The position numbers and the translations under genes were made by a program. A DNA stretch of 60,562 nucleotides from a virus, in the IMG/VR virus record IMGVR_UViG_3300046167_000012, positions 1 to 60,562 of that record. One strand, written 5' to 3'. Position 1 is the stretch's first letter, and every line of letters begins with the position of its first letter. The notes under the pieces are model-generated. The model had not been told where the DNA came from, searched no databases, and saw only the letters and a program-made list of their open reading frames with translations. Below, piece by piece: positions 31,581 to 51,667 of this stretch.

Positions 31581-31603
31581 GGGGGGTGGGGGGTAGGTGG
31601 GGG
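31581..31603 (+). other. G-tract cluster, possible G-quadruplex
   Basis: Two runs of six G separated by one T, then TA, GG, T and five G. This is enough for a stable intramolecular quadruplex on the plus strand. It abuts the palindrome copy at 31603. Confidence 0.5.
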
Positions 31604-31617
31604 TAGTGAGTCACTAC
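31603..31617. repeat. 15-bp palindrome, copy 1
   Basis: GTAGTGAGTCACTAC, exact palindrome with central G. It is 18 bp before the -35 box of the early promoter. Confidence 0.85.
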
Positions 31618-31635
31618 TTTTTATACCCTGATACT

Positions 31636-31664
31636 GTGACACAACACACACAAACAAGTATACT
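31636..31664 (+). promoter_or_regulatory. Sigma70-type promoter for the early operon
   Basis: GTGACA (31636-31641), 17-base spacer, TATACT (31659-31664); 5 of 6 matches in each box. The first early gene starts 63 bases downstream. Confidence 0.6.
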
Positions 31665-31726
31665 GGTGTTATCAAAAGCGAAACATGGTGTATCGCTAGA
31701 TAAAATATTCTTGAAAGGAATATACT

Positions 31727-32278
31727 ATGACTAAAATTAATCAACCAAAACTAAGCGCAGAACTAGGTAAAGAGATTGCACAGTTCAGTAAACATAAAGT
31801 TAATCAGGACAAGCGAACAACAAAAGTTCTTGATCTGTTTAAATCATGTGGGTTCAAAAGCACCGACCTAATCAGCAACACCTCAAAAGGTTCTACAGCC
31901 ACAGAGGAGCAATTCACATGGTGCAAGCAAATGATAGCGAATGGCTTTCCAGATGGAGTTAAAGAGCTTTGTGAACTATCTGCAAAGGCCGCAGGCGATA
32001 AGGTTATCGATGGTCGCAATAGATCATACTGGTCAAAACAACCAAACTCTATAATGGGCGCGTTAAATACCCAACTAAGGAATAGGGAAGAAATTGACGC
32101 TGAGATAGCAAGCGGCAAGCAGGGTGCTGATGCTAGAACAAGATCATCTGAAGCGATTGCCAAGGATCAACTAGGCAAAATAATAACTCGCTTACAAAAA
32201 GCTGAGACATTCGAAACAACTATGGATTTGGATGTTATGATCTCGCAACTACAAGCGATGGTTAAATCAATCGGCTAA
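31727..32278 (+). CDS. First early gene, helical protein of unknown function
   Basis: 183 residues with GAAAGGA ahead of ATG 31727. It is polar and helical: SAELGKEIAQFSKHKVNQDK, TATEEQFTWCKQMIANGFPD, and a C-terminal IAKDQLGKIITRLQKAETFE. As the promoter-proximal early gene it could be a host-takeover or DNA-binding protein. I do not recognise a domain. Confidence 0.7.
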   Translation: MTKINQPKLSAELGKEIAQFSKHKVNQDKRTTKVLDLFKSCGFKSTDLISNTSKGSTATEEQFTWCKQMIANGFPDGVKELCELSAKAAGDKVIDGRNRSYWSKQPNSIMGALNTQLRNREEIDAEIASGKQGADARTRSSEAIAKDQLGKIITRLQKAETFETTMDLDVMISQLQAMVKSIG

Positions 32279-32287
32279 ACTAAACTT

Positions 32288-32307
32288 GGAGCGGCCTAGG
32301 CCGCTCC
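32288..32307. other. Perfect 20-bp palindrome after the first early gene
   Basis: GGAGCGGCCTAGGCCGCTCC is an unbroken palindrome 10 bases past the stop codon. With no T-run after it, it is more likely an mRNA 3' stabiliser, a processing hairpin or a protein site than a classical terminator. Confidence 0.6.
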
Positions 32308-32328
32308 ATACTAACAGGAAATAAAACA

Positions 32329-32580
32329 ATGTTAAAAACACTATCATATAAACAAGATCAAAACAGAATTGGGGAAGCAATGGGATTTAAACGTATTGGA
32401 ATGGTTGCAATAGATATGATTGCAAAATGGCCAGATGAAAAGTTTGACATATTCTTTCCCGCTTTAAGCGTTCGAATGTGTCCGGAAGAAATTGAACGCG
32501 TTCACGATAAAAGACGTTTCAACAAAGAACAAGATGAACCATTTACCAAACAAATGTCTTTTACATTTATACCAAAATAA
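32329..32580 (+). CDS. Small early protein of unknown function
   Basis: 83 residues: LKTLSYKQDQNRIGEAMGFK, MVAIDMIAKWPDEKFDIFFP, VRMCPEEIERVHDKRRFNKE. It has its own spacing, with a palindrome before it and a strong terminator 6 bases after the stop, so the first two early genes form a short transcription unit. No domain recognised. Confidence 0.65.
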   Translation: MLKTLSYKQDQNRIGEAMGFKRIGMVAIDMIAKWPDEKFDIFFPALSVRMCPEEIERVHDKRRFNKEQDEPFTKQMSFTFIPK

Positions 32581-32586
32581 CCACAC

Positions 32587-32617
32587 GCCCCGAGCCGAAA
32601 GGTTCGGGGCTTTTTTT
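32587..32617 (+). terminator. Rho-independent terminator of the first early unit
   Basis: GCCCCGAGCC-GAAA-GGTTCGGGGC forms a ten-pair stem (one G-T) with a GNRA loop, followed by seven T (32611-32617). It separates the first two early genes from the repeat region. Confidence 0.92.
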
Positions 32618-32656
32618 GTGTCTAGATTTCTGTATGTGTTACACCACACAATTATA

Positions 32657-32679
32657 CCAGTTCTCTGAATAGCTTCGCG
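32657..32679 (+). repeat. 23-bp direct repeat, copy 1
   Basis: Begins CCAGTTCTCTGAATAG and ends CTTCGCG. This copy has no palindrome before it. Confidence 0.85.
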
Positions 32680-32720
32680 TCGCAGAGCAATCGGCCTCGT
32701 TATTCGCTTTATCAAAACAA

Positions 32721-32735
32721 GTAGTGACTCACTAC
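32721..32735. repeat. 15-bp palindrome, copy 2
   Basis: GTAGTGACTCACTAC, exact. It stands 9 bp before direct repeat copy 2. Confidence 0.9.
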
Positions 32736-32744
32736 CCATCGACA

Positions 32745-32767
32745 CCAGTTCTCTGAATAGCTTCGCG
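32745..32767 (+). repeat. 23-bp direct repeat, copy 2
   Basis: Identical to copy 1 and 88 bp from it; preceded by TCGACA and the palindrome. Confidence 0.85.
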
Positions 32768-32839
32768 GATCATATGTACTTCGTGTGTACATCTTCTCGT
32801 ATGTTTATGTATGTCGTGTTTACCGGGCCCGTAAGTAAG

Positions 32840-32854
32840 GTAGTGACTCACTAC
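32840..32854. repeat. 15-bp palindrome, copy 3
   Basis: GTAGTGACTCACTAC, exact. It again stands 9 bp before a direct repeat. Confidence 0.9.
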
Positions 32855-32863
32855 ACGTCGACG

Positions 32864-32886
32864 CCAGTTCTCTAAGTAGCTTCGCG
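32864..32886 (+). repeat. 23-bp direct repeat, copy 3
   Basis: Differs from copies 1 and 2 at two positions (CTAAGTAG for CTGAATAG); preceded by TCGACG and the palindrome. Confidence 0.85.
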
Positions 32887-32918
32887 GAGCAACACGTACG
32901 CAGATACCTTGTTTTTAT

Positions 32919-33020
32919 AATGTTCCATTGTAATGTTCCTAATGTTCCACAAGAAGTTCCACAATGTGCAAAAATAAGTCATTGATTTTATTATAATGTT
33001 CCTAATGTTCCTAATGTTCC
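32919..33020 (+). repeat. Left iteron array, six AATGTTCC
   Basis: Copies start at 32919, 32932, 32941, 32995, 33004 and 33013; spacing of 9 bp recurs three times. A degenerate GAAGTTCC lies at 32953-32960. Confidence 0.85.
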
Positions 33021-33109
33021 ATGAAAAAAAATATAGCACCCCATACGCGACCCCCTCTATAATGCGATACCAACCTCACACACAATTTGCCTACACCCCA
33101 AAAATTAAC

Positions 33110-33229
33110 GGAACATTTGGAACATTGGAACATTCCAATGATTTCAAGCACTTACAGACACACCAAATGGAACATTATAAAACCCGATTGGAACATTGTA
33201 ATCTTATCAATAACTTAGCACGGAACATT
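33110..33229 (-). repeat. Right iteron array, six GGAACATT
   Basis: Reverse complements of the left iteron, starting at 33110, 33119, 33127, 33169, 33190 and 33222. The first three are nearly tandem (9 and 8 bp apart). Confidence 0.85.
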
Positions 33230-33242
33230 ACCTTTTAACCCA

Positions 33243-33257
33243 GTAGTGTCTCACTAC
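33243..33257. repeat. 15-bp palindrome, copy 4
   Basis: GTAGTGTCTCACTAC, one change from copy 2. It follows the right iteron array. Confidence 0.8.
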
Positions 33258-33324
33258 CATATACAACCTCGCAATACCTGACGATACCCTGTAATACTTG
33301 ACATAACAAAACACTCTGAAAAAC

Positions 33325-33353
33325 TTGACATTACATGGTTATCATGTTATATT
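33325..33353 (+). promoter_or_regulatory. Near-consensus sigma70 promoter
   Basis: TTGACA (33325-33330), 17-base spacer, TATATT (33348-33353). This is the best promoter match noticed in the window. It is flanked by palindrome copies 4 and 5 and reads into the replication operon. Confidence 0.75.
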
Positions 33354-33410
33354 GGTATATGTTCTGGTGTGATGGCTAACGCCCCAGCTCCACGAGCATC
33401 GCTACCTAGT

Positions 33411-33425
33411 GTAGTGTCTCACTAC
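33411..33425. repeat. 15-bp palindrome, copy 5
   Basis: GTAGTGTCTCACTAC, in the 5' leader between the promoter and the gene at 33462. Confidence 0.8.
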
Positions 33426-33461
33426 CAATCTAATCAACTAATCAAACGAATGGAGATTATC

Positions 33462-33671
33462 ATGCCTATCAAAGCCTATTGCCTCTCATGCGAGCAACCT
33501 TACTCACAACGCCGAAAACAATTGGGTTACAACTTCTGCCTAGATTGCGGTGAATACCAAGCGACTAAGCAACGCGCAGGATGGTGTATCGCACCTATCG
33601 CGCACAAGCAAGGCGCAACACTTGTCACCAATCCAAAAGACCTCAAAGGTCTAAACAAGTATTCGTCATGA
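33462..33671 (+). CDS. Small zinc-ribbon protein
   Basis: 69 residues from ATG 33462, preceded by TGGAGATT; an in-frame ATG at 33369 would translate the palindrome and leader. KAYCLSCEQPYSQRRKQLGY and FCLDCGEYQATKQRAGWCIA give a CxxC-x(n)-CxxC metal site, followed by PIAHKQGATLVTNPKDLKGL. I recall this family from the early region of marine phages. A nucleic-acid or protein-binding role is inferred. Confidence 0.75.
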   Translation: MPIKAYCLSCEQPYSQRRKQLGYNFCLDCGEYQATKQRAGWCIAPIAHKQGATLVTNPKDLKGLNKYSS

Positions 33672-33898
33672 TGAAATTCTGGACAGTACTTCTACTGACG
33701 TATCACGCAGGGTCTGACGATGTCGAACCTATGACTTCAAGTATCCTGTTACCCTCGATGGAAATATGCGGTGATGTGATGGACGACTTCTATCCAACTA
33801 TATTCACGCACTATCCTGACAGCATGGCTCAATGCCTAGAAACCGCAGAGGCTTCAACAACTATGACAAGCCCAATGCCAAAACTAAGACCGTTCTAA
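33668..33898 (+). CDS. Small exported or membrane-anchored protein
   Basis: 76 residues from ATG 33668 (ATGA overlap with the zinc-ribbon gene; a second ATG follows). MMKFWTVLLLTYHAGSDDVE looks like a short signal or anchor sequence. ICGDVMDDFYPTIFTHYPDS and MAQCLETAEA hold two Cys, and the tail is Pro-rich. It resembles a small family seen after the zinc-ribbon gene in marine phages. Function unknown. Confidence 0.6.
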   Translation: MMKFWTVLLLTYHAGSDDVEPMTSSILLPSMEICGDVMDDFYPTIFTHYPDSMAQCLETAEASTTMTSPMPKLRPF

Positions 33899-33909
33899 AG
33901 GAGGACATT

Positions 33910-34827
33910 ATGAACAACGTACACCAACTAACCGCCGCGAGTAGTGAGCCACTACCAACAGATGCACCGACACTTGGCTCATCTGCAATGCTCGTAGAAG
34001 TCAACATCTCTACATGGGCAGGTCGAAGGGAAGACAAGCGGGCTTCCGCTAAAGTCACACAAGACGCCCATGCAAAAAAGGGTATAGCAAACGTGACGAA
34101 GAAGTTACTCGCTAACTCTGACACACTGAGAGCAATACATGTACACGTTACTGCTACTCGCAACATGCACTCGAATATGACGATGCCTTGGTCTAATTCT
34201 GGGCTACGTCTGTTACCTACAGCGCAATACTTCAACTACAGCGAAGCTATGTCTCAAATGCAGAATGAGTTTGAAGCACTAAAGACTAAGTTTCTAGACT
34301 CGTACAACGACGCAGTGGTAGATGTACAGTTAGAGCTTGGCTCGTTGTTCTTACGTGACGACTATCCCACATTAGAAAGTCTAGATAGTAAGTTTGCTTT
34401 CCGTACAAATTACATGCCGTTGCCAGATGTCGGTGACTTCCGTGTCGATGTGGGCAACGAAGCACTACTCGAAATCAAGCAGAAGTATGAGGACTTCTAT
34501 TCCAAACAATACAATACAGCTATGAATGACGTGTGGACACGTTTGCACAAGGCACTGACAAATATGTCTGAGCGCCTAGACTACAGCGGTAAAGAGGACA
34601 AGAAAGTATTTCGTGATACGCTCGTTGGTAATGTCACTGACATGATAGAACTACTACGTGTGTGTAACGTGACGAAGTCGATCCAGATGTCCGACATGGC
34701 AAACAAACTCGAAGATGCAATGTCTGGTGTATCCGCCGTGGTATTGCGTGACGACAATACGTTCCGCGTCAGAACCAAAGCGAAGGTCGACGACATTATC
34801 AAAACACTACCATCATTAGATATGTAA
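33910..34827 (+). CDS. DUF3150-type protein, partner of MoxR ATPase
   Basis: 305 residues from ATG 33910, which has GGAGGACATT just upstream. MLVEVNISTWAGRREDKRAS, AKKGIANVTKKLLANSDTLR and WSNSGLRLLPTAQYF match the start of DUF3150 proteins as I know them. The rest is long helices. These proteins travel with MoxR AAA ATPases and VWA proteins in phages, as here. Palindrome copy 6 lies within codons 11-16 (33941-33955). The biochemical role is unknown; a substrate or adaptor for the ATPase is plausible. Confidence 0.75.
   Translation: MNNVHQLTAASSEPLPTDAPTLGSSAMLVEVNISTWAGRREDKRASAKVTQDAHAKKGIANVTKKLLANSDTLRAIHVHVTATRNMHSNMTMPWSNSGLRLLPTAQYFNYSEAMSQMQNEFEALKTKFLDSYNDAVVDVQLELGSLFLRDDYPTLESLDSKFAFRTNYMPLPDVGDFRVDVGNEALLEIKQKYEDFYSKQYNTAMNDVWTRLHKALTNMSERLDYSGKEDKKVFRDTLVGNVTDMIELLRVCNVTKSIQMSDMANKLEDAMSGVSAVVLRDDNTFRVRTKAKVDDIIKTLPSLDM
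33941..33955. repeat. 15-bp palindrome, copy 6 (in gene)
   Basis: GTAGTGAGCCACTAC inside the DUF3150 gene, starting at codon position 2 and encoding SSEPLP. Confidence 0.75.
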
Positions 34828-34832
34828 GAATG

Positions 34833-34847
34833 GTAGTGGCTCACTAC
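34833..34847. repeat. 15-bp palindrome, copy 7
   Basis: GTAGTGGCTCACTAC in the gap before the MoxR-type gene, 5 bases after the DUF3150 stop. Confidence 0.8.
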
Positions 34848-34884
34848 TTAACAACACTAAACTTAAACAAGAAAGAAGAACAAC

Positions 34885-35997
34885 ATGAATAATCAAGCAC
34901 AATCAATGTACGCACTAAGCCCAGATCAAGTTTCTGATGCAATCAAGAGCCAACTACATGTGGATGAAGAGGATAAGAACACACTTATCGTTGAGGGTCA
35001 CATGGGTAGCGGCAAATCTTCGATACTGAAAACACTGGACGCGCAGTTACCGAAACACAAAGCAATCTATTTTGATTGCACAACCAAGGCAGATGCAGGT
35101 GACTTGATGATGCCCAAGTTCAAAGACCTAGAAGGTAACGACTATGTGACCTTTGCCACTAACGAGGAACTAGGTGTACACATCAAAGATCAACCACTCA
35201 TTATTATGATAGACGAGGTGGGTAAGAACAAGAGCTTACAGAACCCACTCAATCGTTTGTTCCAAGAGCGTATGATTGGTATGAACAAACTACATCCTGA
35301 CACGCTAGTGTTTGCTACAACTAATATTGGTGCAGAAGGTGTCGGTGATATGTTCATGCCACACACATGTAACCGCGTCACGTTTGTACGCATGCGTAAA
35401 CCTAACAATACGGAATGGATCGAATGGGGTATCAACAACGACATAGACCACAGCATGCTTGGTTGGTGTAAGGACAATCCACAGTTGTTTGCATCGTTTG
35501 AAGATGTGAAAGACCCAGACGAAAACCCGTGGATATTTCACCCAAAAGCTTTTAGACGTTCGTTCTTTACGCCGCGCTCTGGTCACAAAGCATCTAACTG
35601 GCTAAAACAACGCCACCTCCTTGATGATCAAACACTCACAGCCGCATTAATGGGTACGATTGGTGATCGTGCGGCAATGGACTTGATGGCGTTTGTAACA
35701 CTAGCTGATCAGCTACCTACCTTGCAGTCTATCAAAGACAATCCAAAGAGTGCCAAAGTGCCTGACAGCGCCGCCGCCATATGTATGGTTGTGTATAGAA
35801 CTCTGTCTGCGTTGGAAAAAGACTGGCTCAACAGCTGGATGGATTACTTGCCACGCCTCGATACCGAAGCACAAGCTATGTTTGCTAATGGTGTACGCGC
35901 ACCGAAGTATTCAAAGCAGTCAATGGTTATGACTAACAAGAAGTTCACCGAGTGGGCTATGAAGAACAACCACCTATACACAGCAGATAAAATATAA
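34885..35997 (+). CDS. MoxR-type AAA+ ATPase
   Basis: 370 residues. Walker A GHMGSGKSS (residues 38-46), Walker B PLIIMIDEVGK (about 104-114), sensor 1 TLVFATTNIGAEG and a later helical lid. This is the MoxR/dynein-related branch, which remodels partner proteins, often VWA-containing ones. Here it is flanked by DUF3150 and VWA genes and a SANT-domain gene, all in the same direction. The likely role is ATP-driven activation or insertion of a metal or cofactor; the target is unknown. Confidence 0.85.
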   Translation: MNNQAQSMYALSPDQVSDAIKSQLHVDEEDKNTLIVEGHMGSGKSSILKTLDAQLPKHKAIYFDCTTKADAGDLMMPKFKDLEGNDYVTFATNEELGVHIKDQPLIIMIDEVGKNKSLQNPLNRLFQERMIGMNKLHPDTLVFATTNIGAEGVGDMFMPHTCNRVTFVRMRKPNNTEWIEWGINNDIDHSMLGWCKDNPQLFASFEDVKDPDENPWIFHPKAFRRSFFTPRSGHKASNWLKQRHLLDDQTLTAALMGTIGDRAAMDLMAFVTLADQLPTLQSIKDNPKSAKVPDSAAAICMVVYRTLSALEKDWLNSWMDYLPRLDTEAQAMFANGVRAPKYSKQSMVMTNKKFTEWAMKNNHLYTADKI

Positions 35998-36008
35998 GGA
36001 GAGAAATA

Positions 36009-36401
36009 ATGGGTAAACGATGGACAGATAAAGAGGACGGTATCCTCGAAGCATTACGTGATGGGGGCATGACCTTTGAGGAGATTGCTTCCGTAATGGG
36101 TCGCACAAAGCAAGCAGTACAGCAACGTGCGCATATGTTGAAACGTAACGAGCCTACGTTTCGTGAAGTTGTGGATACAGCTTTTGCCAAGCACGGTATC
36201 GAGTTCGGTGAACCTGATAAAGTTGATGCGGCGTATGAACACTTTAAAGAACAGCTATACCCTAATGGTGTTAGCGACATTCATGCTTCATTACAGAAGA
36301 ACAAGCCGTTGCCGAGAATACAATACATGCTCAGTCAAATGGAACGAGACTTAAAGCCGAAGCCGCAGTGGTGGAAAGCTATGATGTGGTGGAGGAAATA
36401 A
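36009..36401 (+). CDS. SANT/Myb-like helix-turn-helix protein
   Basis: 130 residues. GKRWTDKEDGILEALRDGGM, TFEEIASVMGRTKQAVQQRA is a SANT/Myb-type three-helix fold with the Trp and a recognition helix. The C-terminal part is helical and basic. It lies between the ATPase and the VWA gene. It is one of the candidate DNA-binding proteins for the palindrome family; that link is only a hypothesis. Confidence 0.75.
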   Translation: MGKRWTDKEDGILEALRDGGMTFEEIASVMGRTKQAVQQRAHMLKRNEPTFREVVDTAFAKHGIEFGEPDKVDAAYEHFKEQLYPNGVSDIHASLQKNKPLPRIQYMLSQMERDLKPKPQWWKAMMWWRK

Positions 36402-36402
36402 C

Positions 36403-37674
36403 ATGCTAGCAATTAAACAACTAACTGAGGAGCAACGCCTAACAAAAGCCGTTGTATCTATTATGAGTAGCCCGAAGTATGTCGCACTCGCAGGGGTGCT
36501 AATGATCGGGGAGCGTTCTGTAGTGGACGACCCGAGCGTACCGACGGCATGTACCAATGGGCGTGACGAGTTCTACGGACGTGAGTTTGTAAGTAAGCTC
36601 AACGATGCCGAGCTTAGATTTCTGGTATTGCACGAAGTGTACCACAAGTTGTTCCGTCACTTGACCACATGGAAACATCTATACATGCAAGACGCATACC
36701 TTGCGAATGTATCGTGTGACTACGTGATCAACCTAAAGATTGTAGATGATAACTACGAAGATGGGTTTGCTACTATGACAGGCGAGCTTGCGAAAGGTTG
36801 CTATGATCGTAAGTATGTGGGTATGGACACCGCGCAGGTGTACAACTTGCTACGTAAAGATCAACCGCAAGGCGGCGCGGGTCGTGGTGGTGTTATCGTA
36901 ATCGGTGATCCCGAAGATGGTGATGGTACACCGCAGAACGGTAGTGGCTCACTACCTGATGGACAAGAACCATTCGATGCACATGATTGGGAAGGCGCAC
37001 AAGAAATGACCGCCGACGAACAACGTGATCTTGCCAGAGAGATTGACGAGGCAGTACGTCAAGGTGCATTGGTTGCAGGGAAGATGGGCAGTGGTGGTGA
37101 TCGTGACCTAGAAGCATTACTAGAACCACAAGTCGATTGGCGTGAAGTGTTGCGTGAGTTTGTGCAGGCTACATGTACAGGCAATGATTACTCTACATGG
37201 CGTAAACCAAAACGTAGGTTGCTTGGTCAAGGTATATACATGCCTAGCACGTACAGCGAACAGGTCGGGGAACTGGTGGTTGCAATCGACACGTCTGGGT
37301 CTATCCAACAGCCCGAAGTCACCGCGTTTCTTTCCGAGGTCAAAGCAATATGCGATATGGTACACCCAGATAAAGTACGTCTGTTGTATTGGGACACGAA
37401 GGTATGTGGTGATGAAACGTATGACACGCATGAACTAGAAACACTTATACAATCTACCAAGATCAAAGGCGGTGGCGGTACAGATGTAGACTGTGTGACT
37501 GAATACATTCGTGAAGAAAGCATCAACGCGCAAGCGGCTATCGTACTAACAGATGGAGAACTATACAGTGGTTGGGGTCAGTGGACTATGCCTGTGTTGT
37601 GGTGCGTTATCGACAACAAGCACAAAGTGCCAGACGTAGGTAAATGTGTACACATAAAATCGAGGGACATGTAA
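36403..37674 (+). CDS. VWA metallopeptidase-like protein (DUF2201 type)
   Basis: 423 residues in two parts. The N-terminal part has HEVYHKLF (residues 77-84, zinc HExxH) and a second acidic or Cys region (VSCDYVINLKIVDD). The C-terminal VWA domain has the MIDAS motif DTSGS (296-300) and GGGGTDVD with the conserved Thr and Asp. Known relatives pair with MoxR ATPases. The gene is 2 bases after the SANT gene. Palindrome copy 8 lies within it. Probably a metal-dependent partner of the ATPase; substrate unknown. Confidence 0.85.
   Translation: MLAIKQLTEEQRLTKAVVSIMSSPKYVALAGVLMIGERSVVDDPSVPTACTNGRDEFYGREFVSKLNDAELRFLVLHEVYHKLFRHLTTWKHLYMQDAYLANVSCDYVINLKIVDDNYEDGFATMTGELAKGCYDRKYVGMDTAQVYNLLRKDQPQGGAGRGGVIVIGDPEDGDGTPQNGSGSLPDGQEPFDAHDWEGAQEMTADEQRDLAREIDEAVRQGALVAGKMGSGGDRDLEALLEPQVDWREVLREFVQATCTGNDYSTWRKPKRRLLGQGIYMPSTYSEQVGELVVAIDTSGSIQQPEVTAFLSEVKAICDMVHPDKVRLLYWDTKVCGDETYDTHELETLIQSTKIKGGGGTDVDCVTEYIREESINAQAAIVLTDGELYSGWGQWTMPVLWCVIDNKHKVPDVGKCVHIKSRDM
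36941..36955. repeat. 15-bp palindrome, copy 8 (in gene)
   Basis: GTAGTGGCTCACTAC, identical to copy 7, in the linker of the VWA gene. It starts at codon position 2 and encodes GSGSLP. Confidence 0.8.
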
Positions 37675-37847
37675 TGAGTAAAACTTATATTGGAGTGTGG
37701 GAGTGTACCTTCTACAAGAGCGATGCCGATGGCAACGAACTCAAGAACGCCGATGGTAGTATCAAACTATTCGATGCACCTAAATTAGATATGTCTCACT
37801 TTGCGGAGTACGTAGACGACGATGATTTAGTGGAGGTGAAGCGATGA
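37674..37847 (+). CDS. Small protein of unknown function
   Basis: 57 residues from ATG 37674, which overlaps the VWA stop (TAATG). KTYIGVWECTFYKSDADGNE, then DAPKLDMSHFAEYVDDDDLV; acidic, no domain recognised. An earlier in-frame ATG (37644) lies inside the VWA gene and is unlikely. Confidence 0.6.
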   Translation: MSKTYIGVWECTFYKSDADGNELKNADGSIKLFDAPKLDMSHFAEYVDDDDLVEVKR

Positions 37848-38065
37848 GTAAGATTGGAAACTATGTAGTAGAACTACAGGAGCAAGAGATTTTCATCGAA
37901 TGTCCTGAGTGCAAAGACACAGACCGACAGGGCAAAGTTACAGGCGAGGAGTTCAAGTGGACGGGCGATATGTACGAGCCATTTGAAACATGGGTTGATT
38001 GCGAAAACTGTAATGGACTTGGGGAGATCGAACGTGATTACGACGACGATTCGTGTGGGCAATAA
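37844..38065 (+). CDS. Small protein with DnaJ-like zinc motif
   Basis: 73 residues. Two pairs, ECPECKDTDRQG and DCENCNGLGEI, resemble the CxxCxGxG repeats of the DnaJ central domain. The C-terminus is acidic. It overlaps the previous gene by ATGA. Likely a zinc-stabilised adaptor; partner unknown. Confidence 0.65.
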   Translation: MSKIGNYVVELQEQEIFIECPECKDTDRQGKVTGEEFKWTGDMYEPFETWVDCENCNGLGEIERDYDDDSCGQ

Positions 38066-38122
38066 ATGCCCACGCAGATGCTTTAAACTAAACAATAACA
38101 TTTAACAACAGGATAAAAACAA

Positions 38123-39220
38123 ATGGCACTAACATATTCATCATTCGAGAGCTTCGACGAGGTAGTGGCTCACTACGAAAACATAAAGCCAATGGGCGGT
38201 AGTGGTAACAAGGGTAAAGATATCAGACCCATAGGTGATCGTAAACGTAAGTACGAACGTATCGTAAAGATCAGCAACAACTGCTACGCACTATCAGACG
38301 GCTTTCACTTTGGTGACAAGTACTTCAACTGGGGTTGGGGCTATACTGCTTCTGCTGAGTTTGTACCTACACTAAAGGACATGGAGAAGTATGCACCTAT
38401 CATATGGCGCAAGAAACGTGACGGCACAGAACAAGTCACAATACGTAATGGGTATGGAAATCACGCACACAACGGACGTTATGCTTTTATAAACAGGCAT
38501 ACACCAAAAGGTCTGGGGTTTGTTGTCGACAATGGTAAACAGTATGTGACTAAGACAATGGGTAGGTATCCTGACCATAGGCATGACGAACGATATTACT
38601 TAGCCAAGACCCATACCGCACCGCGTATTGTCTACGACCATATAAAAGATCAGCAAAACGCTAATTGGTATCAAGAAAATGCTAAGAAGTGGGTCATGTT
38701 ACACGACGACAACTCTGCCTTAGTGTTCAACAAAGCCGAAAGTAAAGATCGGTTCTCTGGTGTTGACTGGGTACATGTCAAGGGAACAGGGCGCGCACTG
38801 CCGAAAGCGCCGCGTGTGAACATAGAAATCAAAGCCAAGTACAAAGACTCAATCAAAAAGTTTTTCGAATGGGGTATGACTATGTCACCGCTAATGCCAT
38901 TGGAGGACAACGAGTACCTGTATAAACATCATCAAGACTTGGTTGAAGCCTACGGTCAAACAAGGGGCAACCACTGGAGGAAAGTAGATGGTATGAGAGG
39001 ACGTGAGATTGTGCGTAGTAGTAGACACCCTGCACGGCTAGCGTTTTGGATAGAGTTTGCCAAACAATGCTACGCGCCAGACGAGCAGAGTTGGAGTTTC
39101 AACAGTTCGCCGTTGCTCACTAAAATAAAAACCAAAGAAGATATTTCCCATGTACGAGCATGCTTCAACAGATTTATCAACACAGAACTTGGGTTCATTA
39201 CAAAAGGAGAACAACCATGA
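38123..39220 (+). CDS. Early protein of unknown function
   Basis: 365 residues, rich in Lys, Tyr and Trp. KRKYERIVKISNNCYALSDG, FHFGDKYFNWGWGYTASAE, IIWRKKRDGTEQVTIRNGYG, then RYAFINRHTPKGLGFVVDNG. No catalytic motif is clear. Palindrome copy 9 lies at codons 14-18. It precedes a paired gene (ATGA overlap) of similar expression context. I recall similar proteins in marine phages, without function. Confidence 0.65.
   Translation: MALTYSSFESFDEVVAHYENIKPMGGSGNKGKDIRPIGDRKRKYERIVKISNNCYALSDGFHFGDKYFNWGWGYTASAEFVPTLKDMEKYAPIIWRKKRDGTEQVTIRNGYGNHAHNGRYAFINRHTPKGLGFVVDNGKQYVTKTMGRYPDHRHDERYYLAKTHTAPRIVYDHIKDQQNANWYQENAKKWVMLHDDNSALVFNKAESKDRFSGVDWVHVKGTGRALPKAPRVNIEIKAKYKDSIKKFFEWGMTMSPLMPLEDNEYLYKHHQDLVEAYGQTRGNHWRKVDGMRGREIVRSSRHPARLAFWIEFAKQCYAPDEQSWSFNSSPLLTKIKTKEDISHVRACFNRFINTELGFITKGEQP
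38162..38176. repeat. 15-bp palindrome, copy 9 (in gene)
   Basis: GTAGTGGCTCACTAC, identical to copies 7 and 8 but starting at codon position 1, so it encodes VVAHY. Confidence 0.8.
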
Positions 39221-40107
39221 GTGACTTAGAATTAAAATTAGTAAGGGATATTGAAAAACCAAACCCAGATTATAAGGTATATACACCTAATCTAGATGTG
39301 CAGATGATGGCAGATGCACTAACCAAAAAGGTTCGCGGTTACAAGACCGCGCCTAAAAGTTTGGAATCCATGTGGGTTTACAGACCGCAAGACACCTACG
39401 CTATGGGTTGGATAAGATACGCAGACGTGTTTGAAGGTGGTACAGGTGACAAGCGGCATGCTGTTTATTCGCCTAACATACAGAACGGCAAGTACTCGTA
39501 TGGAGATAATTGCTTCATGTCTTCAGCACTGCATTTCAACAAGGGGTTACTTAACGCATGTAAATACCTACGCCCACCAACCGCAAAGCAAGTTGTGGAA
39601 CAAGTGCAAAGGGATTTTGCTAGAGGTGTGTCTCGTTCGTTGGACGAAGTAAAGACCAAGGCACACAAGATAACGAACAAGATTGACACCGATGTATTTG
39701 GTAGGACACGCCTAAACACCGCACCTCTTAAAAGAGAACTCGCTAACATATTAAAGTCAGACTACGAGTTTCTCGACAAAGAACTTGAAGTGCAACTAAT
39801 CGAAGCCTTTGAAGCGGTTAAGGAGCTACATGATAGTAGAGATATACATGATAAAGACCACACGTTTATCGAGGTTGTACAAGCTCAAGGTGCTAACCTA
39901 TACCGAGGCTTCAAGAAAATACCGCAACACTTCACACTGTTTCATCACGACGATAGTGCTGATAACAAGATAGCGTACACACAGGAAGAACTACCAGAGA
40001 GACTACTCGGTGCTATGTCTGTGTTGTCTATGGTCGACGAAGGCCAATACGTTGCGGGTGTTGGGTATCGTGCAGGTGAAAATATGTTCTACATTAAAGG
40101 CGAGTAA
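39217..40107 (+). CDS. Early protein of unknown function
   Basis: 296 residues from ATG 39217 (AAGGAGA upstream; ATGA overlap). It reads SDLELKLVRDIEKPNPDYKV, AVYSPNIQNGKYSYGDNCFM, PPTAKQVVEQVQRDFARGVS, a helical middle, and ends YVAGVGYRAGENMFYIKGE. Mixed alpha/beta with no motif that I can name. Coupling to the previous gene suggests that the two products act together. Confidence 0.65.
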   Translation: MSDLELKLVRDIEKPNPDYKVYTPNLDVQMMADALTKKVRGYKTAPKSLESMWVYRPQDTYAMGWIRYADVFEGGTGDKRHAVYSPNIQNGKYSYGDNCFMSSALHFNKGLLNACKYLRPPTAKQVVEQVQRDFARGVSRSLDEVKTKAHKITNKIDTDVFGRTRLNTAPLKRELANILKSDYEFLDKELEVQLIEAFEAVKELHDSRDIHDKDHTFIEVVQAQGANLYRGFKKIPQHFTLFHHDDSADNKIAYTQEELPERLLGAMSVLSMVDEGQYVAGVGYRAGENMFYIKGE

Positions 40108-40109
40108 GT

Positions 40110-40367
40110 GTGGGAACAACTGACACTATCACGTACCGCGTGACAATACATCCTACTACAAATAAGGTTAATGTAATGTCTTTTGATCTAGACGCTATTG
40201 ACGCGACAGGTTTAGGAGTATATGACACTATAAACGAAACACCTAAATGGATCAGGGAGCGTATTGCTACACTTATGCTCGTTGATCCTACACCACCGAC
40301 TGAACCAATAGAAGGTGTAGGTCACAGGATCGACAAAACTACTTATTGGATTTACGCTGATAGGTAG
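40110..40367 (+). CDS. Small protein of unknown function, GTG start
   Basis: 85 residues from GTG 40110, 2 bases after the previous stop. TITYRVTIHPTTNKVNVMSF, LGVYDTINETPKWIRERIAT, with Pro-rich TPPTEPIEG near the end. The stop TAG is the second to fourth base of palindrome copy 10. No domain recognised. Confidence 0.55.
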   Translation: MGTTDTITYRVTIHPTTNKVNVMSFDLDAIDATGLGVYDTINETPKWIRERIATLMLVDPTPPTEPIEGVGHRIDKTTYWIYADR

Positions 40368-40378
40368 TGACACACTAC
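40364..40378. repeat. 15-bp palindrome, copy 10
   Basis: GTAGTGACACACTAC, one change from copy 2. It supplies the stop codon (TAG TGA) of the gene ending at 40367. Confidence 0.75.
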
Positions 40379-40389
40379 CAATTTAACTT

Positions 40390-40413
40390 TGGGGGGCGGA
40401 CATCTGCCCCCCA
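40390..40413. other. Stable 8-bp hairpin before the VRR-NUC gene
   Basis: TGGGGGGC and GCCCCCCA form an exact stem around GGACATCT. It is 33 bases before the next start codon. No adjacent T-run; it may be a processing or attenuation hairpin. Confidence 0.55.
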
Positions 40414-40445
40414 TCGAAGCCAGTTATTTTACATGGAGATCAACA

Positions 40446-40754
40446 ATGGCAACAACACCAGAAGCTAAAGTAAAGAAGGTAGTGACTAACTACCTAAAGA
40501 AGATGGGAGCATACTACTTCTACCCTGTTACAGGTGGATTTGGACGAAGCGGCGTACCTGACATAATCGCATGCTACAAAGGTCTGTTCCTTGGTATTGA
40601 ATGTAAAGCAGGGAAGGGGAAGACTACCGCACTGCAACAGAAGAACCTAGATGATATCAAAACAGCAGGGGGTTTTGATTGGGTTGTAAACGAAACAAAT
40701 ATGCACCAAACAGAAACACAGATTAAGTATTGGGCATCAACACAACAGGAATAA
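40446..40754 (+). CDS. VRR-NUC domain nuclease
   Basis: 102 residues from ATG 40446 (ATGGAGATC upstream). GGFGRSGVPDIIACYKGLFL, GIECKAGKGKTTALQQKNLD holds the PD-(D/E)xK core: Asp39, Glu52 and Lys54. The family includes phage Holliday-junction or flap endonucleases and the catalytic part of FAN1. In this operon it probably resolves branched replication DNA before packaging. Palindrome copy 11 lies at codons 12-16. Confidence 0.88.
   Translation: MATTPEAKVKKVVTNYLKKMGAYYFYPVTGGFGRSGVPDIIACYKGLFLGIECKAGKGKTTALQQKNLDDIKTAGGFDWVVNETNMHQTETQIKYWASTQQE
40479..40493. repeat. 15-bp palindrome, copy 11 (in gene)
   Basis: GTAGTGACTAACTAC, one change from copy 2, inside the VRR-NUC gene at codon position 1, encoding VVTNY. 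Confidence 0.65.
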
Positions 40755-40759
40755 ACAAT

Positions 40760-41245
40760 ATGAACATTTTGAATAACATGGAATCGCAAGAAGTTTTTAT
40801 CGTACATCAAATGCCTACAGGCACTGCCTTTGGGGTACGTGTCGATAACGGCGAGAAGGTCTTTATAAACTCTAAGCTAGCTAAGAAGCACACCGTCGCA
40901 GAAGAACAAGTACGGACGCTTACACTAATACCAAACACTAAAGTTGACACGCCTTGGCAAGCGGTTGGTGTATCTGCAAACGTCGAAGAACCTACACCGA
41001 GAGTTGAGGTAGCCAATCTGGAAGATCGTATCGAAGAGTATTTCCAAGAGGAAGCTAATCAGGTTGCATCTACTTCTAAAGTATTAGCTGACGCATTAGA
41101 CGTTGACGTTGTGTCTGTACAAACAGCACTTATTCGTATGCACAATGCAGGGGAAATGACCAAGGCTCAAGTGCATTGTAAAGGTGGGCAAGACAAAGCC
41201 TCTTGGGTTTTATGGGCGCCAAATACAGATTGGTATGAAATGTAA
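40760..41245 (+). CDS. Putative OB-fold/winged-helix protein
   Basis: 161 residues from ATG 40760. The N-terminal half (EVFIVHQMPTGTAFGVRVDN, GEKVFINSKLAKKHTVAEEQ, VRTLTLIPN) looks like a small beta barrel. The second half (EEYFQEEANQVASTSKVLAD, ALDVDVVSVQTALIRMHNAG) is winged-helix-like. It could be a regulator or a replication accessory factor. The domain reading is by pattern only. Confidence 0.6.
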   Translation: MNILNNMESQEVFIVHQMPTGTAFGVRVDNGEKVFINSKLAKKHTVAEEQVRTLTLIPNTKVDTPWQAVGVSANVEEPTPRVEVANLEDRIEEYFQEEANQVASTSKVLADALDVDVVSVQTALIRMHNAGEMTKAQVHCKGGQDKASWVLWAPNTDWYEM

Positions 41246-41436
41246 TGCACAACAAAAAGAAACTAACGCCCGCCCTCGAGTACGAGTTACAGTTCTTACG
41301 TAAACAAGTAGACTTTTGGCAACAGCAATACATACAACCAACTGCATCACCATCTGCAAGAGATCGTTACGACTACGCCAAAGCAGACTTAACTAAGTTT
41401 GTTAGTAACAGGCGCAAAGAAGGATACAACATATGA
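41245..41436 (+). CDS. Small helical protein
   Basis: 63 residues; the start overlaps the previous stop (TAATG). HNKKKLTPALEYELQFLRKQ then a Gln/Tyr-rich helix and basic tail RRKEGYNI. It overlaps the next gene by 4 bases. Function unknown. Confidence 0.55.
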   Translation: MHNKKKLTPALEYELQFLRKQVDFWQQQYIQPTASPSARDRYDYAKADLTKFVSNRRKEGYNI

Positions 41437-41888
41437 CCAAGAAAGAAGAACGTGTATGGACGTATCTACTTGCTAACCGCAAGGCAACTTCTAGTGAAGT
41501 AGCTAAAGCCGTAGGGGTAAGTATAAAATACGTAGACAAGATGATAGCAACTATATCGTCACCTAACTGGAGAGAAGAAATACCTGTGCCTAAGTTTGTA
41601 AAGGACGACAACGCTAAAACTAGGTACGACCTGTTACCACCAGAGTTGCTCGAAGAAACAGCAAGAGTTCTTACGTTTGGCGCACAGAAGTATAGCGCAC
41701 ACAACTGGGCGCAAGGTGCATCTTGGAGTAGATACTTTAGCGCAATGATGCGTCACATGTGGGCTTGGTGGAGAGGTGAAGATAATGACCCCGAAACAGG
41801 GTTTTCACATTTAGCACACGCCGCATGCTGTCTTAGCTTTCTCATAGCTTATCAGCGGCGCGGCCTTGGAGAGGACGATAGAGTATAA
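41433..41888 (+). CDS. dATP/dGTP diphosphohydrolase-like protein with N-terminal HTH
   Basis: 151 residues. Residues 1-40 (RVWTYLLANRKATSSEVAKA, VGVSIKYVDKMIATI) look like a winged helix. From about residue 67, RYDLLPPELLEETARVLTFG, AQKYSAHNWAQGASWSRYFS and HMWAWWRGEDNDPETGFSHL resemble the DUF5664/dATP-dGTP diphosphohydrolase N-terminal family. It may adjust purine nucleotide pools during replication. No PurZ-like gene is present, so a 2-aminoadenine genome is not indicated. Confidence 0.7.
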   Translation: MTKKEERVWTYLLANRKATSSEVAKAVGVSIKYVDKMIATISSPNWREEIPVPKFVKDDNAKTRYDLLPPELLEETARVLTFGAQKYSAHNWAQGASWSRYFSAMMRHMWAWWRGEDNDPETGFSHLAHAACCLSFLIAYQRRGLGEDDRV

Positions 41889-42250
41889 TGGGCAGTAAAA
41901 TTAAACCTATAACTGAAAAGATAATTACTCTTAGTAAAGCGGGTATGTGTAAGGAAGACATAGCACGAGAAGTACAAGGGACTTACGCACAGGTTGCCGC
42001 GTCCATAGCAAGGGCGCAAAGGCGTGGAGATTTGCCGCCAAATAAGCCAGTTCCCATCACAGATATAGCATCGTTTAGGCGTCGCTACGATATTAAGACA
42101 GGTAGTGTTGGTTCGTCGTTGGTAGAAAACACCACCAAAGAAGTATGGGATTTTGCCGCAGACCAAATGCTAAGAAACGATTACCCTAGCTTGGCAGATT
42201 ACCTCGTCGATTTGTTAGTAGATGAATACTACAAAAAGAAAGTTAACTAA
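41888..42250 (+). CDS. Helix-turn-helix protein upstream of the polymerase
   Basis: 120 residues. KPITEKIITLSKAGMCKEDI, AREVQGTYAQVAASIARAQR is a clear HTH. The second half is acidic and helical (SLADYLVDLLVDEYYKKK). Its start overlaps the previous stop and its stop overlaps the polymerase start (TAATG both times). Possible regulator or polymerase-loading factor. Confidence 0.65.
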   Translation: MGSKIKPITEKIITLSKAGMCKEDIAREVQGTYAQVAASIARAQRRGDLPPNKPVPITDIASFRRRYDIKTGSVGSSLVENTTKEVWDFAADQMLRNDYPSLADYLVDLLVDEYYKKKVN

Positions 42251-44076
42251 TGGATGTATACACGCTCGACTTTGAGACTTACTATGATCAGGACTACTCA
42301 CTATCTAAGATGACGACAGAAGATTATGTGCGCGACTCACGGTTCGAAGTAATCGGCCTTGCTATAAAAAAGAATGATAAAGCCACTCAGTACTTAAACG
42401 ACCCCGTGACCATTGAACGTCTACTATCATACATAGACTTCTCTCAGAGCGCCATCCTAGCACAGAACACTATGTTCGATGGAGCTATACTAAGTTGGAG
42501 ATATGGTGTGAAGCCGAAGGTTTGGTTCGATACTATGTGCATGGGTAGAGGTTTACACGGCGTGGATGCAGGCGCATCATTGCGGGCTTTGTCTGAACGC
42601 TACGGTATCGGCGAAAAAGGTTTCGAAGTACACAACGCCAAGGGCAAACGCCGCGCCGATTTCACTGCGGAAGAAGCTAAGAAGTACGGCGAGTATTGTA
42701 TACAGGATGTCGAGCTAACGTATAAACTGTTTAAGATCATGGGGGCTAACTTCCCTCGCACTGAGCTAAAGCTAATCGACGTTACATTGCGTATGTTTAT
42801 TGATCCGATACTTGATCTAGACCTTGGGTTGTTGGAACAGCACTTGGAAGACACGCAAGATCGTAAGGATAAACTACTGCGCGATGCAGGGGTGACAGAT
42901 AAGAAAGACTTGATGTCAAATCTCAAGTTTGCTGACATGCTACGTGATCTTGGTGTCGAGCCGCCTATGAAGACCAGTCTGACAACAGGTAAGGAGACGT
43001 ACGCCTTTGCTAAGAGCGACGAAGACTTCAAGGCATTGCAGGAGCATGCTGATGATCGTGTGCAATCTCTAGTAGCGGCGCGCCTTGGGAACAAATCTAC
43101 TCTTGAGGAAACACGTACGCAGAGGTTTATAGGTATATCTAAACGTGGGCGTTTACCCGTACCGATTAGGTACTACGCGGCGCACACCGGCAGATGGGGT
43201 GGGTCAGATAAAATTAACTTACAAAACCTACCGAGCCGTGGGCCAAATGGTAAGAAGCTAAAGAAGGCTATCATTGCACCAGAAGGACACACAGTTGTCG
43301 AAGCCGATTCGTCCCAAATCGAGGCGCGAGTGCTTGCGTGGTTCGCAGGGCAGAACGATCTTGTAGATCAGTTCGCCAAGGGTGAGGACGTGTACAAGTA
43401 TATGGCGTCAAGTATATACAACGTGGCCGTAGAAGACGTAACTAAAGACCAAAGGTTCGTGGGTAAGACTACAATTCTAGGTGCGGGCTACGGCATGGGG
43501 GCAGAGAAGTTCGGCATGCAGTTAAAGACGTTTGGGTTTGAGGTGTCTGAGGACGAGGCAAGACGGATTATATCTATCTATCGAGAAGCTAACTTTAAGA
43601 TAAGCAAGGTATGGAGAGATGCTAACTACATGGTTAAGCAGTTGGCTAACTACCGTGCTGTGCAGTTTGGTAAGAAGGGTATCATTGGGGTAGACCCTAA
43701 AAACCAAGCCCTGATAGTACCTAGTGGGTTAAAGATATTTTACCCTGAGTTACATGGGGAGCAGTCTGAGAGTGGTTTCGAATATACATACAAAGTACGC
43801 CGAGGCCGAACACGGATATATGGCGGTAAAGTTATCGAGAACGTGTGTCAGGCTATAGCGCGTTGCATAATAGGTGAGCAGATGCTACTAATTAATAAGA
43901 AGTATAAAGTAGTGCTTACTGTACACGATTCGATTGCATGTTGTGTACCCGACGAGGAGGTCGCTGAAGCACAAGCATACGTGGAGAGATGTATGAGATG
44001 GACACCAGACTGGGCAGAGGGCCTTCCTGTCGATTGCGAAAGTGGCACTGGCAAATCCTATGGAGATTGTGAATGA
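42250..44076 (+). CDS. polA: DNA polymerase, family A, with 3'-5' exonuclease
   Basis: 608 residues, short because there is no 5' nuclease domain. The exonuclease begins LDFETYY (Asp7, Glu9). Polymerase motif A VVEADSSQIEARVLAWF has Asp353. Motif B has Arg402, Lys406, Leu410 and Tyr414 (RFVGKTTILGAGYG). Motif C is VHDS (559-561). Leu410 aligns with E. coli Pol I Phe762, the residue that in marine phages distinguishes polymerase classes. It replicates the phage genome with the primase-helicase and SSB-like protein. Confidence 0.95.
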   Translation: MDVYTLDFETYYDQDYSLSKMTTEDYVRDSRFEVIGLAIKKNDKATQYLNDPVTIERLLSYIDFSQSAILAQNTMFDGAILSWRYGVKPKVWFDTMCMGRGLHGVDAGASLRALSERYGIGEKGFEVHNAKGKRRADFTAEEAKKYGEYCIQDVELTYKLFKIMGANFPRTELKLIDVTLRMFIDPILDLDLGLLEQHLEDTQDRKDKLLRDAGVTDKKDLMSNLKFADMLRDLGVEPPMKTSLTTGKETYAFAKSDEDFKALQEHADDRVQSLVAARLGNKSTLEETRTQRFIGISKRGRLPVPIRYYAAHTGRWGGSDKINLQNLPSRGPNGKKLKKAIIAPEGHTVVEADSSQIEARVLAWFAGQNDLVDQFAKGEDVYKYMASSIYNVAVEDVTKDQRFVGKTTILGAGYGMGAEKFGMQLKTFGFEVSEDEARRIISIYREANFKISKVWRDANYMVKQLANYRAVQFGKKGIIGVDPKNQALIVPSGLKIFYPELHGEQSESGFEYTYKVRRGRTRIYGGKVIENVCQAIARCIIGEQMLLINKKYKVVLTVHDSIACCVPDEEVAEAQAYVERCMRWTPDWAEGLPVDCESGTGKSYGDCE

Positions 44077-44405
44077 AGGATAAATACATCAATGCGTATG
44101 AAGCGCAGCTGCTTGGGGCTCGAAATACTCCAACGCAGGGGCGAGCCGAGGTTAAGTTAGCTGGTGGAGAGTTAGAGGTTAAGTTAGGTGGTGGAGAGTT
44201 AATTTGTTGCCCGCTCTGTGACGGTGCCGAGCTAACAATGCGGACTTGGGAGTTACGGAACGGTCTTGTTATGGAGTATAGTGGTATGTTCGCGGATTAT
44301 CACTGCCGAGACTGCGATGAGGTAATGACGTTGGGTTTCTTCAACCAACCTATAGGAGAGGATAGGATGGCCGCAAGAATAAACTGGGTGGTAAAAGATG
44401 AGTAA
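44073..44405 (+). CDS. Zinc-ribbon protein with an internal tandem duplication
   Basis: 110 residues. EVKLAGGELEVKLGGGELIC is a 9-residue unit present twice, encoded by the adjoining 27-bp repeats at 44148-44201. After it CCPLCDGAE and YHCRDCDEVMTLGFF make a zinc ribbon. It overlaps the polymerase by ATGA and the nuclease by 8 bases. Function unknown. Confidence 0.65.
   Translation: MKDKYINAYEAQLLGARNTPTQGRAEVKLAGGELEVKLGGGELICCPLCDGAELTMRTWELRNGLVMEYSGMFADYHCRDCDEVMTLGFFNQPIGEDRMAARINWVVKDE
44148..44201 (+). repeat. 27-bp tandem duplication inside a gene
   Basis: Two units, 44148-44174 and 44175-44201, differ at one base (GCT against GGT). The duplication preserves frame. Confidence 0.9.
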
Positions 44406-45072
44406 AGCCGCGCCGTGGTCGTTTAGCCGTATCAAAGCATTTGAGCAATGCCCCAAACAGTTCTACCATGAGAAGGTACTCAAGCAGTATCCGTTCAGAG
44501 AAACCGAGGCTATGCGCTACGGCACTGAGTTCCACAAGGCATGTGAGGATTACATAGGTAAAGGTACTCCTGTACCCGCCAAGTTTGACTTTATAAAACC
44601 TACGTTGGATTCCCTTAATAACAAAAAAGGTAAGAAGATAGTAGAGCAGAAGTTAGGCTTGACCGCTGACCTAGAACCCTGCAGTTTCTTTGCAAAAGAT
44701 GTATGGTTTCGAGGCATTGTTGATCTTGCGATCATAGATAAAGAAACTGGGGTGGGTTGGATAATTGACTACAAGACAGGCAGATCGGCGAAGTATGCTG
44801 ACAAAGGCCAGTTGGAGTTGATGGCGTTGACAATTTTTAAACATTACCCCGAGGTCACTAAGCTAAATGCAGGTCTGTTGTTCGTTATTGCCAAGAGCCT
44901 TGTCAAAGCCGAATATGAAATAGACTTACAGCAACTTCTATGGGGGAAATGGTTAGCAAACTATGCTAAGATGGAGAAAGCGTTCGAGGTGGATGTTTGG
45001 AATCCAAAGCCATCTGGTCTGTGTAAACGACACTGTCAAGTAGTTGAGTGTCCCCATAATGGAGCAAACTAA
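44398..45072 (+). CDS. PD-(D/E)xK nuclease of the Cas4/AddB iron-sulfur type
   Basis: 224 residues. SFSRIKAFEQCPKQFYHEKV opens the RecB-nuclease fold. TEFHKACEDYI, FRGIVDLAIIDKETG and GWIIDYKTGR supply the active-site Asp, Asp and Lys. Cys18 with Cys209, Cys213 and Cys218 (LCKRHCQVVECPH) has the spacing of the 4Fe-4S cluster in Cas4 and AddB. There is no CRISPR gene nearby, so the role is probably end processing or recombination in replication. Confidence 0.85.
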   Translation: MSKAAPWSFSRIKAFEQCPKQFYHEKVLKQYPFRETEAMRYGTEFHKACEDYIGKGTPVPAKFDFIKPTLDSLNNKKGKKIVEQKLGLTADLEPCSFFAKDVWFRGIVDLAIIDKETGVGWIIDYKTGRSAKYADKGQLELMALTIFKHYPEVTKLNAGLLFVIAKSLVKAEYEIDLQQLLWGKWLANYAKMEKAFEVDVWNPKPSGLCKRHCQVVECPHNGAN

Positions 45073-45362
45073 TGCCATACGTAAATAAACCCCGCCCGTA
45101 TAAAAAAGAATATCAACAGCAGAAAGCGAGAGGAGAACACGAAGCTCGTATGGAGCGACAACGCGCCAGACGTGCGATGGATAAGAAAGGTAAAGATGCC
45201 AACAAGAATGGCAAAGCCGACAAGCGAGAAGGTAAAGATATCGCTCACAAGAAGGCACTAAGTAAAGGCGGCACAAACAAGGACGGATACAAAGTCCAAA
45301 GCCGTAAGAAAAATCGAGCCGCGGGTGGTGCTATGAGCAGCCCCAAAAAGAAGAAAAAGTAG
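45072..45362 (+). CDS. Basic protein with degenerate HNH-like motif
   Basis: 96 residues, very basic. NKPRPYKKEYQQQKARGEHE, ARMERQRARRAMDKKGKD, then DIAHKKALSKGGTNKDGYKV and SRKKNRAAGG. The last parts follow the D-x-H-x(n)-GG-x-N-x(n)-N pattern of HNH-like proteins in marine phages. It lacks a clear second metal His, so activity is doubtful. Its stop TAG is the second to fourth base of palindrome copy 12. Confidence 0.65.
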   Translation: MPYVNKPRPYKKEYQQQKARGEHEARMERQRARRAMDKKGKDANKNGKADKREGKDIAHKKALSKGGTNKDGYKVQSRKKNRAAGGAMSSPKKKKK

Positions 45363-45373
45363 TGACTCACTAC
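45359..45373. repeat. 15-bp palindrome, copy 12
   Basis: GTAGTGACTCACTAC, exact. It supplies the stop codon (TAG TGA) of the basic HNH-like gene and sits 14 bases before the helicase start. This is the last copy seen. Confidence 0.9.
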
Positions 45374-45386
45374 TACGGAGAACAAC

Positions 45387-46922: not shown

Positions 46923-46973
46923 CTACCATACAATCGTATATGACAGTAAAACAAGTATAAAACGGAGAACAAC

Positions 46974-47590: not shown

Positions 47591-47593
47591 TAC

Positions 47594-51642: not shown

Positions 51643-51667
51643 GCCCCTGCTTCGGCGGGGGCTTTTT
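51643..51667 (+). terminator. Rho-independent terminator of the early operon
   Basis: GCCCCTGC-TTCG-GCGGGGGC is an eight-pair stem (one T-G) with a TTCG loop, followed by five T. It ends the rightward unit exactly where the leftward virion unit ends (stop 51666), so the two operons converge on it. Confidence 0.9.

Follow-up and report, generated by a model that had tools for sequence, protein, structure and literature searches.

The window, by which we mean the whole stretch of DNA that was analysed (60,562 bp), is an IMG/VR virus contig, and the phage is marine. Two facing arrays of a short iteron lie at 32919-33229 (Table 1). Left of the arrays are the terminase and structural genes, which are read leftward, with the TerS gene 1.6 kb away; the genes at 31727-32580 are read rightward and have a terminator at their end. 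Downstream of the arrays the replication operon starts at around 33462. It sits between the arrays and the gene of the proposed initiator, a primase-helicase that is its last gene. TTGACA-type promoters are visible at a position equivalent to that of the window promoter in several relatives.

Table 1. Coordinates of the array region, its flanking signals and the proposed initiator gene in the window.
Feature	Position	Strand	Basis
Intrinsic terminator closing the two rightward genes left of the arrays	32587-32610	+	
Left iteron array, six copies of AATGTTCC pointing to the spacer	32919-33020	+	exact match
Triples of the left array	32919/32932/32941 and 32995/33004/33013	+	exact AATGTTCC
Exact IHF-consensus match AATCAATGACTTA, in the gap separating the left triples	32975-32987	-	
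AT-rich stretch of 50 bp with the lowest stability in the array region, covering the inner left triple and the following A-tract	32985-33034		nearest-neighbour profile
Central spacer, A/C-rich and G-poor	33021-33109		base composition and relatives
Right iteron array, six copies of AATGTTCC pointing to the spacer (33110, 33119, 33127, 33169, 33190, 33222)	33110-33229	-	
IHF-like site TTTCAAGCACTTA, one mismatch to the consensus	33142-33154	+	
Exact IHF-consensus match TATCAATAACTTA, located between right iterons five and six	33205-33217	+	
Sigma-70 promoter TTGACA-17-TATATT, immediately to the right of the array	33325-33353	+	consensus match
Replication/early operon: DUF3150, AAA ATPase, HTH, VWA, PolA, exonuclease, SNF2 helicase, small genes	33832-48472	+	
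Primase-helicase, proposed origin-binding initiator, 941 aa: N-terminal PrimPol, DUF927 MCM-like helicase, C-terminal winged helix	48564-51389	+	
C-terminal winged-helix domain (residues ~858-925)	51135-51338	+	model prediction

The record contains 12 exact copies of AATGTTCC, all at 32919-33229 and none outside this cluster; the first six are on the plus strand and the other six on the minus strand. By chance 2.0 copies would be expected in the whole record, and none of 100 shuffles contained as many as 12. In a scan for facing arrays the locus scored 12, compared to a maximum of 4 in 40 shuffles. Start-to-start spacings are 13, 9, 54, 9 and 9 bp on the left and 9, 8, 42, 21 and 32 bp on the right. 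The central spacer (91 bp, or about 90) consists of 40% A and 34% C. A sequence-only reading of the window had described six direct and six inverted 8-mers at these coordinates, several of them 9 bp apart, around an A/C-rich spacer of roughly 90 bp, preceded by a terminator and followed by the replication operon, and all of this held. Its claim that the area is non-coding held with a qualification, as an 80-aa open reading frame at 32996-33238 overlaps the right half of the array. The spacer of the relative G018 is 35 bp shorter than that of the window (56 versus 91 bp), a length difference that would shift the reading frame, and the region therefore shows no conservation as coding sequence. 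An Rfam search gave no matches. A role for DnaA boxes was considered and dropped: the window has a single TTTTGCACA and none was present in the 18 other arrays scanned.

Relatives were gathered by TerL and AAA ATPase searches, and 40 contigs were opened further. The anchored scan was printed for 26 contigs, with a score of at least 8 counted as an array; by this measure 20 of them have facing arrays upstream of DUF3150, in front of the replication operon. Iteron positions can be superimposed in the closest group, where four genomes (G001, G018, G030 and G032) match the relative positions of the window, and the exact layout of six plus six is a feature of this group. Over the wider set of relatives there are four to seven iterons per side, and each lineage has its own 8-mer: AATGTTC with C, G or T as the eighth base, AAAGTTC with C or T, AATGTATC, or AATGTCG. 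The spacer varies in both sequence and length (56-162 bp), while the facing geometry is constant. No clear array was found in the anchored scan of G023, G026 and G028. Relatives by terminase include, among isolates, Planktothrix phage Pag-Yong1 and the pelagiphages HTVC023P and HTVC027P (41-47% identity); no comparable array was seen near TerL in the more distant isolates HTVC023P, HTVC027P, 023Pt_psg01 and DSL-LC04. A pattern scan of the collection for AATGTWAC iterons was abandoned, as it returned mostly chance matches and two relatives without the primase gene. Some contigs end within the spacer (L004, L016, L035), and these ends were considered as genome termini; on visual inspection they were not more frequent than contig ends elsewhere upstream of TerL.

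The arrays also carry consensus sites for a host protein. The consensus for IHF binding is WATCAANNNNTTR, and exact matches among the iterons number 22 in 19 genomes, where dinucleotide shuffles predict 0.8. In the window and its closest relatives these sites mirror each other in the same way as the iterons do. The presence of IHF-consensus sites within the array, as in an IHF-assisted origin, is thus established, and their occupancy by IHF is inferred. The least stable 50 bp have the same location in several relatives as in the window, and in others they fall in a different part of the array or next to it. We regard this stretch in the window as a candidate unwinding element, a role that is inferred.

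The primase-helicase encoded at the end of the operon is related to initiators that bind iterons. It has a Pfam DUF927 match (E 5.8e-24), and a profile of 37 homologues matched the Rep protein of SaPIbov1 (8tch, E 1.6e-23) and Cch of SCCmec (5dgk, E 3.5e-15). A full-length AlphaFold2 model (mean pLDDT 83) gave the same two proteins as best folds (5dgk, E 1.5e-18; 8tch, E 3e-17), and its N-terminus gave PrimPol fold matches. For the C-terminal domain the prediction is a pair of strands and a pair of helices, with a wing of two strands. A fold search with the C-terminal fragment again placed Cch first (5dgk, E 9.6e-4), ahead of weak winged-helix (HSF) matches. A C-terminal winged-helix domain that binds double-stranded DNA is therefore present as far as the model predicts, and this rests on the model only. 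Two further observations concern homologues of this protein. The contigs with the primase of G013 and G012 (L185 and L187) have one in-frame TAG within the primase-helicase match. The homologue in a Rhizobium phage (L549, 11239-14322; MN988472, 42239-45322) is annotated as ‘putative integrase protein’, apparently a misannotation.

Within one clade the iterons change as a set, and this offers a way to identify the protein that reads them. Two genomes, G007 and G009, have about 95% DNA identity through most of their length and the same array, and their main iterons read AATGTATC at all positions in G007 and AATGTTCC in G009. Since the main iterons differ, the protein that reads them must differ as well. 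TerS differs by one residue between the two genomes and the AAA ATPase by none. Of the 947 positions of the primase-helicase, 27 differ, and a close group of changes lies in the C-terminal domain (K909T, V911T, Q912R, M913I). The corresponding variable positions of the window protein are 902-906, with the sequence KRTKK, and form the first strand of the predicted wing. The winged-helix segment follows the iteron: TKTRI is found with AATGTTCC, KKVQM with AATGTATC and, by inference across two contigs, KKVSI with AATGTTAC. Four segment types occur in the clade (ATKTRI, AKKVQM, AKKVSI and AKKMHI), and among 14 distinct proteins position 912 is R, Q, S or H and position 911 takes three residues, with the domain otherwise nearly constant. 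The most variable stretch of five residues in the clade protein is a looser loop at 218-222, so variability as such is not unique to the C-terminus; it is the match with the iteron that singles the C-terminus out.

A third iteron was predicted for the AKKVSI phages before their arrays were looked at, and AATGTTAC was then found on an adjoining contig. The AKKVSI contig (L309/L423) starts inside the AAA gene, and L422 ends inside this gene and carries AATGTTAC at every main position. L422 was the only other contig found in the same metagenome with that AAA ATPase. The two ends overlap by 395 bp at 98% identity, with 7 mismatches and 1 gap, for which reason the link can only be inferred; the pairing of AKKVSI with AATGTTAC joins two contigs and was not seen on one molecule. 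Initiators of the AATGTTAC and AATGTATC types differ at only 9 of 947 residues, and 6 of these lie in 904-929. Residue 912 is K or R wherever base 7 of the iteron is C, and Q where base 7 is T. This would be consistent with the standard contacts of arginine to G and glutamine to A, in the absence of binding data. The AKKMHI type predicts a fourth iteron. This segment type is found on contig L315 (primase at 3812-6652), and contig L420 from the same metagenome has an AAA gene and starts just past the array.

Other proteins were considered as readers of the iterons. The AAA ATPase was rejected, as it is 63-65% identical where the iterons are equal (G001 and G018) and 90-91% where they differ; G001, whose AAA ATPase is 63-64% identical, has the same 12 iterons as the window and G039/L085 has AAAGTTCC instead. 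TerS is nearly invariant across the switch, and PolA, o298 and o104 carry identical or almost identical changes in genomes of the AATGTATC and of the AATGTTAC type. The products of o210, o82, o86, HTH165, o174 and o220 also differ among the three iteron types, but in none of them do the differences form a matching cluster within a DNA-binding motif, and none has the homology that such a reader should have. It is thus the C-terminal domain of the primase-helicase that appears to set which iteron is recognised. The support is natural covariation in one clade, to which the clean iteron switch is limited, and it is indirect as there is no binding assay.

Based on these results we propose that 32919-33229 is a replication origin bound by the PrimPol-DUF927 primase-helicase. 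We consider this very likely (probability about 0.85), without binding or replication data. The sequence-only reading had likewise proposed a candidate origin, which is supported, with origin activity inferred and not measured. It held that absence of the iterons from close relatives would refute this, and they are present in dozens. The primase-helicase, one of the initiators it had named, is now the best supported candidate, because its C-terminal domain changes with the iteron and it is homologous to iteron-binding initiators. GC skew, which it had suggested as a check, cannot decide on the origin: the cumulative minimum lies near 34-35 kb, but the skew follows the coding strand, and the third-position skew of the coding strand gave no replication signal.

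The following sequence of events would fit this proposal. The primase-helicase may bind the iterons through its C-terminal winged helix, and the six iterons on each side would probably nucleate one helicase hexamer, so that two assemble in head-to-head orientation on either side of the spacer. Between the iterons, host IHF would bind and bend the DNA, and the AT-rich block at the inner left triple would open. The self-loading DUF927 helicase rings would then move outward and unwind in both directions, after which the fused PrimPol would prime and the phage PolA would synthesise DNA. The arrays, their conservation, the IHF sites, the homology to SaPI Rep and Cch and the joint change of iteron and C-terminus are shown; direct binding, the number of hexamers, the melting site and bidirectional firing remain inferences.

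Several known systems share parts of this arrangement. SaPIbov1 Rep (8tch) is likewise a self-loading DUF927 initiator helicase, with homology in both sequence and fold, and SaPI Reps bind iteron origins through their C-terminal domain. The SaPIbov1 origin has multiple short iterons, as does the window with its six plus six AATGTTCC, and binding of the iterons by Rep has been proposed to involve two hexamers (PMC7581432). In contrast, SaPI is a satellite island, while here the helicase is fused to a PrimPol and encoded in a phage replication operon, and IHF sites lie among the iterons. Moreover, the SaPI origin directly follows rep, whereas in the window about 15 kb separate the array from the initiator gene downstream of it. 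Because it is not directly downstream of that gene, we classify the array as a variant and not as a member of the SaPI type; what sets this variant of the SaPI Rep/Cch iteron origin apart is the tailed phage, the PrimPol fusion, the distance of 15 kb, the IHF sites and the switch of specificity as a unit. SCCmec Cch (5dgk), the best fold match of both the full-length model and the C-terminal fragment, belongs to a cassette element. Cch2, for which origin work has been described, is from a different helicase family than Cch and has three AAGTG iterons (PMC7581432).

Two phage systems are also comparable. The alpha protein of phage P4 combines primase, helicase and origin binding in one polypeptide and uses short iterons (ori/crr). 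It was not among the sequence or fold matches of the primase-helicase; by analogy it resembles the window initiator in the way it works, and kinship is not shown. In lambda, another tailed phage, the O protein also binds an origin built of iterons. These are located within the gene of the initiator, and O has no helicase function, while the window iterons are intergenic and far from the initiator gene, so the window does not qualify as a lambda-type origin. In the literature searched, which left most subscription journals uncovered, no description of a system like that of the window was found.

Among isolates, Pseudomonas phage Rollin (OR577172) offers a parallel. Its initiator is 30% identical, and it has orthologues of PolA, SNF2 and other genes of the operon. 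The best facing array in its 61 kb is formed by TATGCAA, with three plus copies followed by four minus copies at 260-679 and an extra plus copy at 617 (score 6, with a maximum of 5 in 40 shuffles of the genome). Rollin thus shares the facing array, a perfect IHF site and long palindromes on either side, and differs in the sequence of the iteron; its record has no annotated origin. In Rhizobium phage RHph_TM3_14A, with an initiator that is 24% identical, no clear array was recovered.

Four other explanations of the arrays were weighed. Firstly, instead of an origin they could form operators through which the early operon is regulated, perhaps by the initiator as a repressor of its own operon. 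They lie just upstream of a strong promoter, and many iteron initiators autoregulate. Against this, the mirror-image sites would have no obvious purpose, since nothing leftward needs a promoter (the genes at 31727-32580 are read rightward and terminated); the covarying protein is a helicase initiator and not a repressor; and a separate family of palindromes fits the operator role better. We consider this reading unlikely, although dual use as origin and autoregulatory site is possible. Secondly, they could be a packaging site (pac or cosB-like), bound by TerS with IHF as in lambda cosB. The TerS gene is close by, and lambda cosB also pairs repeats with an IHF site. However, the changes in TerS (1 residue between G007 and G009, 2 between G009 and the AATGTTAC contig) are too few for a full change of the repeat, and the facing layout of six plus six is unlike cosB, which makes this reading very unlikely. 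Thirdly, the initiator could bind the arrays as an incompatibility, copy-control or partition region that is not itself the start point, as iteron plasmids and the satellite P4 have accessory iteron clusters. This is very unlikely as well, given that the arrays are the only cluster of AATGTTCC in the record, which leaves no other site for the origin, and that the region has IHF sites and an AT block of low stability. Lastly, inverted repeats can break assemblies, but functionless repeats or an assembly artefact are all but excluded by the equal positions in many independent metagenomes and the coordinated switching of copies.

For the origin reading, the natural series of iteron and protein pairs makes origin specificity testable in the SaPI Rep/Cch class of helicases. 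Origins are unknown for most uncultivated marine phages, and a large group of them now has a recognisable architecture with a matched initiator. It also comes within reach to ask why a whole set of iterons changes together with its initiator. A bolder reading is that initiator and origin form a switchable code, in which a few wing-strand residues and all iterons change together between near-identical phages; we offer this tentatively, as the balance of evidence does not yet favour it. If true, such a code would give mutually orthogonal origins, which could limit cross-replication in mixed infections or satellite parasitism.

Several other elements were seen in the region. About 12 near-perfect palindromes, GTAGTGNCTCACTAC, occur at 31603-45373 and in the early region only; four of them flank the iteron arrays (32721, 32840, 33243 and 33411). 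Relatives have palindromes specific to their lineage at matching places, and that of phage Rollin is AAAAGGTAGYAACTTRCTACCTTTT. They are likely operators or hairpin elements, with a partner that is unidentified. An N4-type virion RNA polymerase was rejected as this partner, as the 2211-aa protein considered matches no solved structure and is DarB/LPD39-like. This protein is encoded on the minus strand at 51666-58301 and has an LPD39 domain and similarity to DarB-like antirestriction proteins. Left of the arrays, CCAGTTCTCTGAATAGCTTCGCG is present three times at 32657-32886, without Rfam matches, and CCAGTTCT followed by variable sequence recurs at the equivalent place in several relatives. Inside the replication operon, the AAA ATPase adjoins a metallopeptidase/VWA protein at 34885-37674, a pair that is conserved throughout the group, and the ATPase is distantly related to those of 70-76 kb phages of Stenotrophomonas, Achromobacter and Salmonella.
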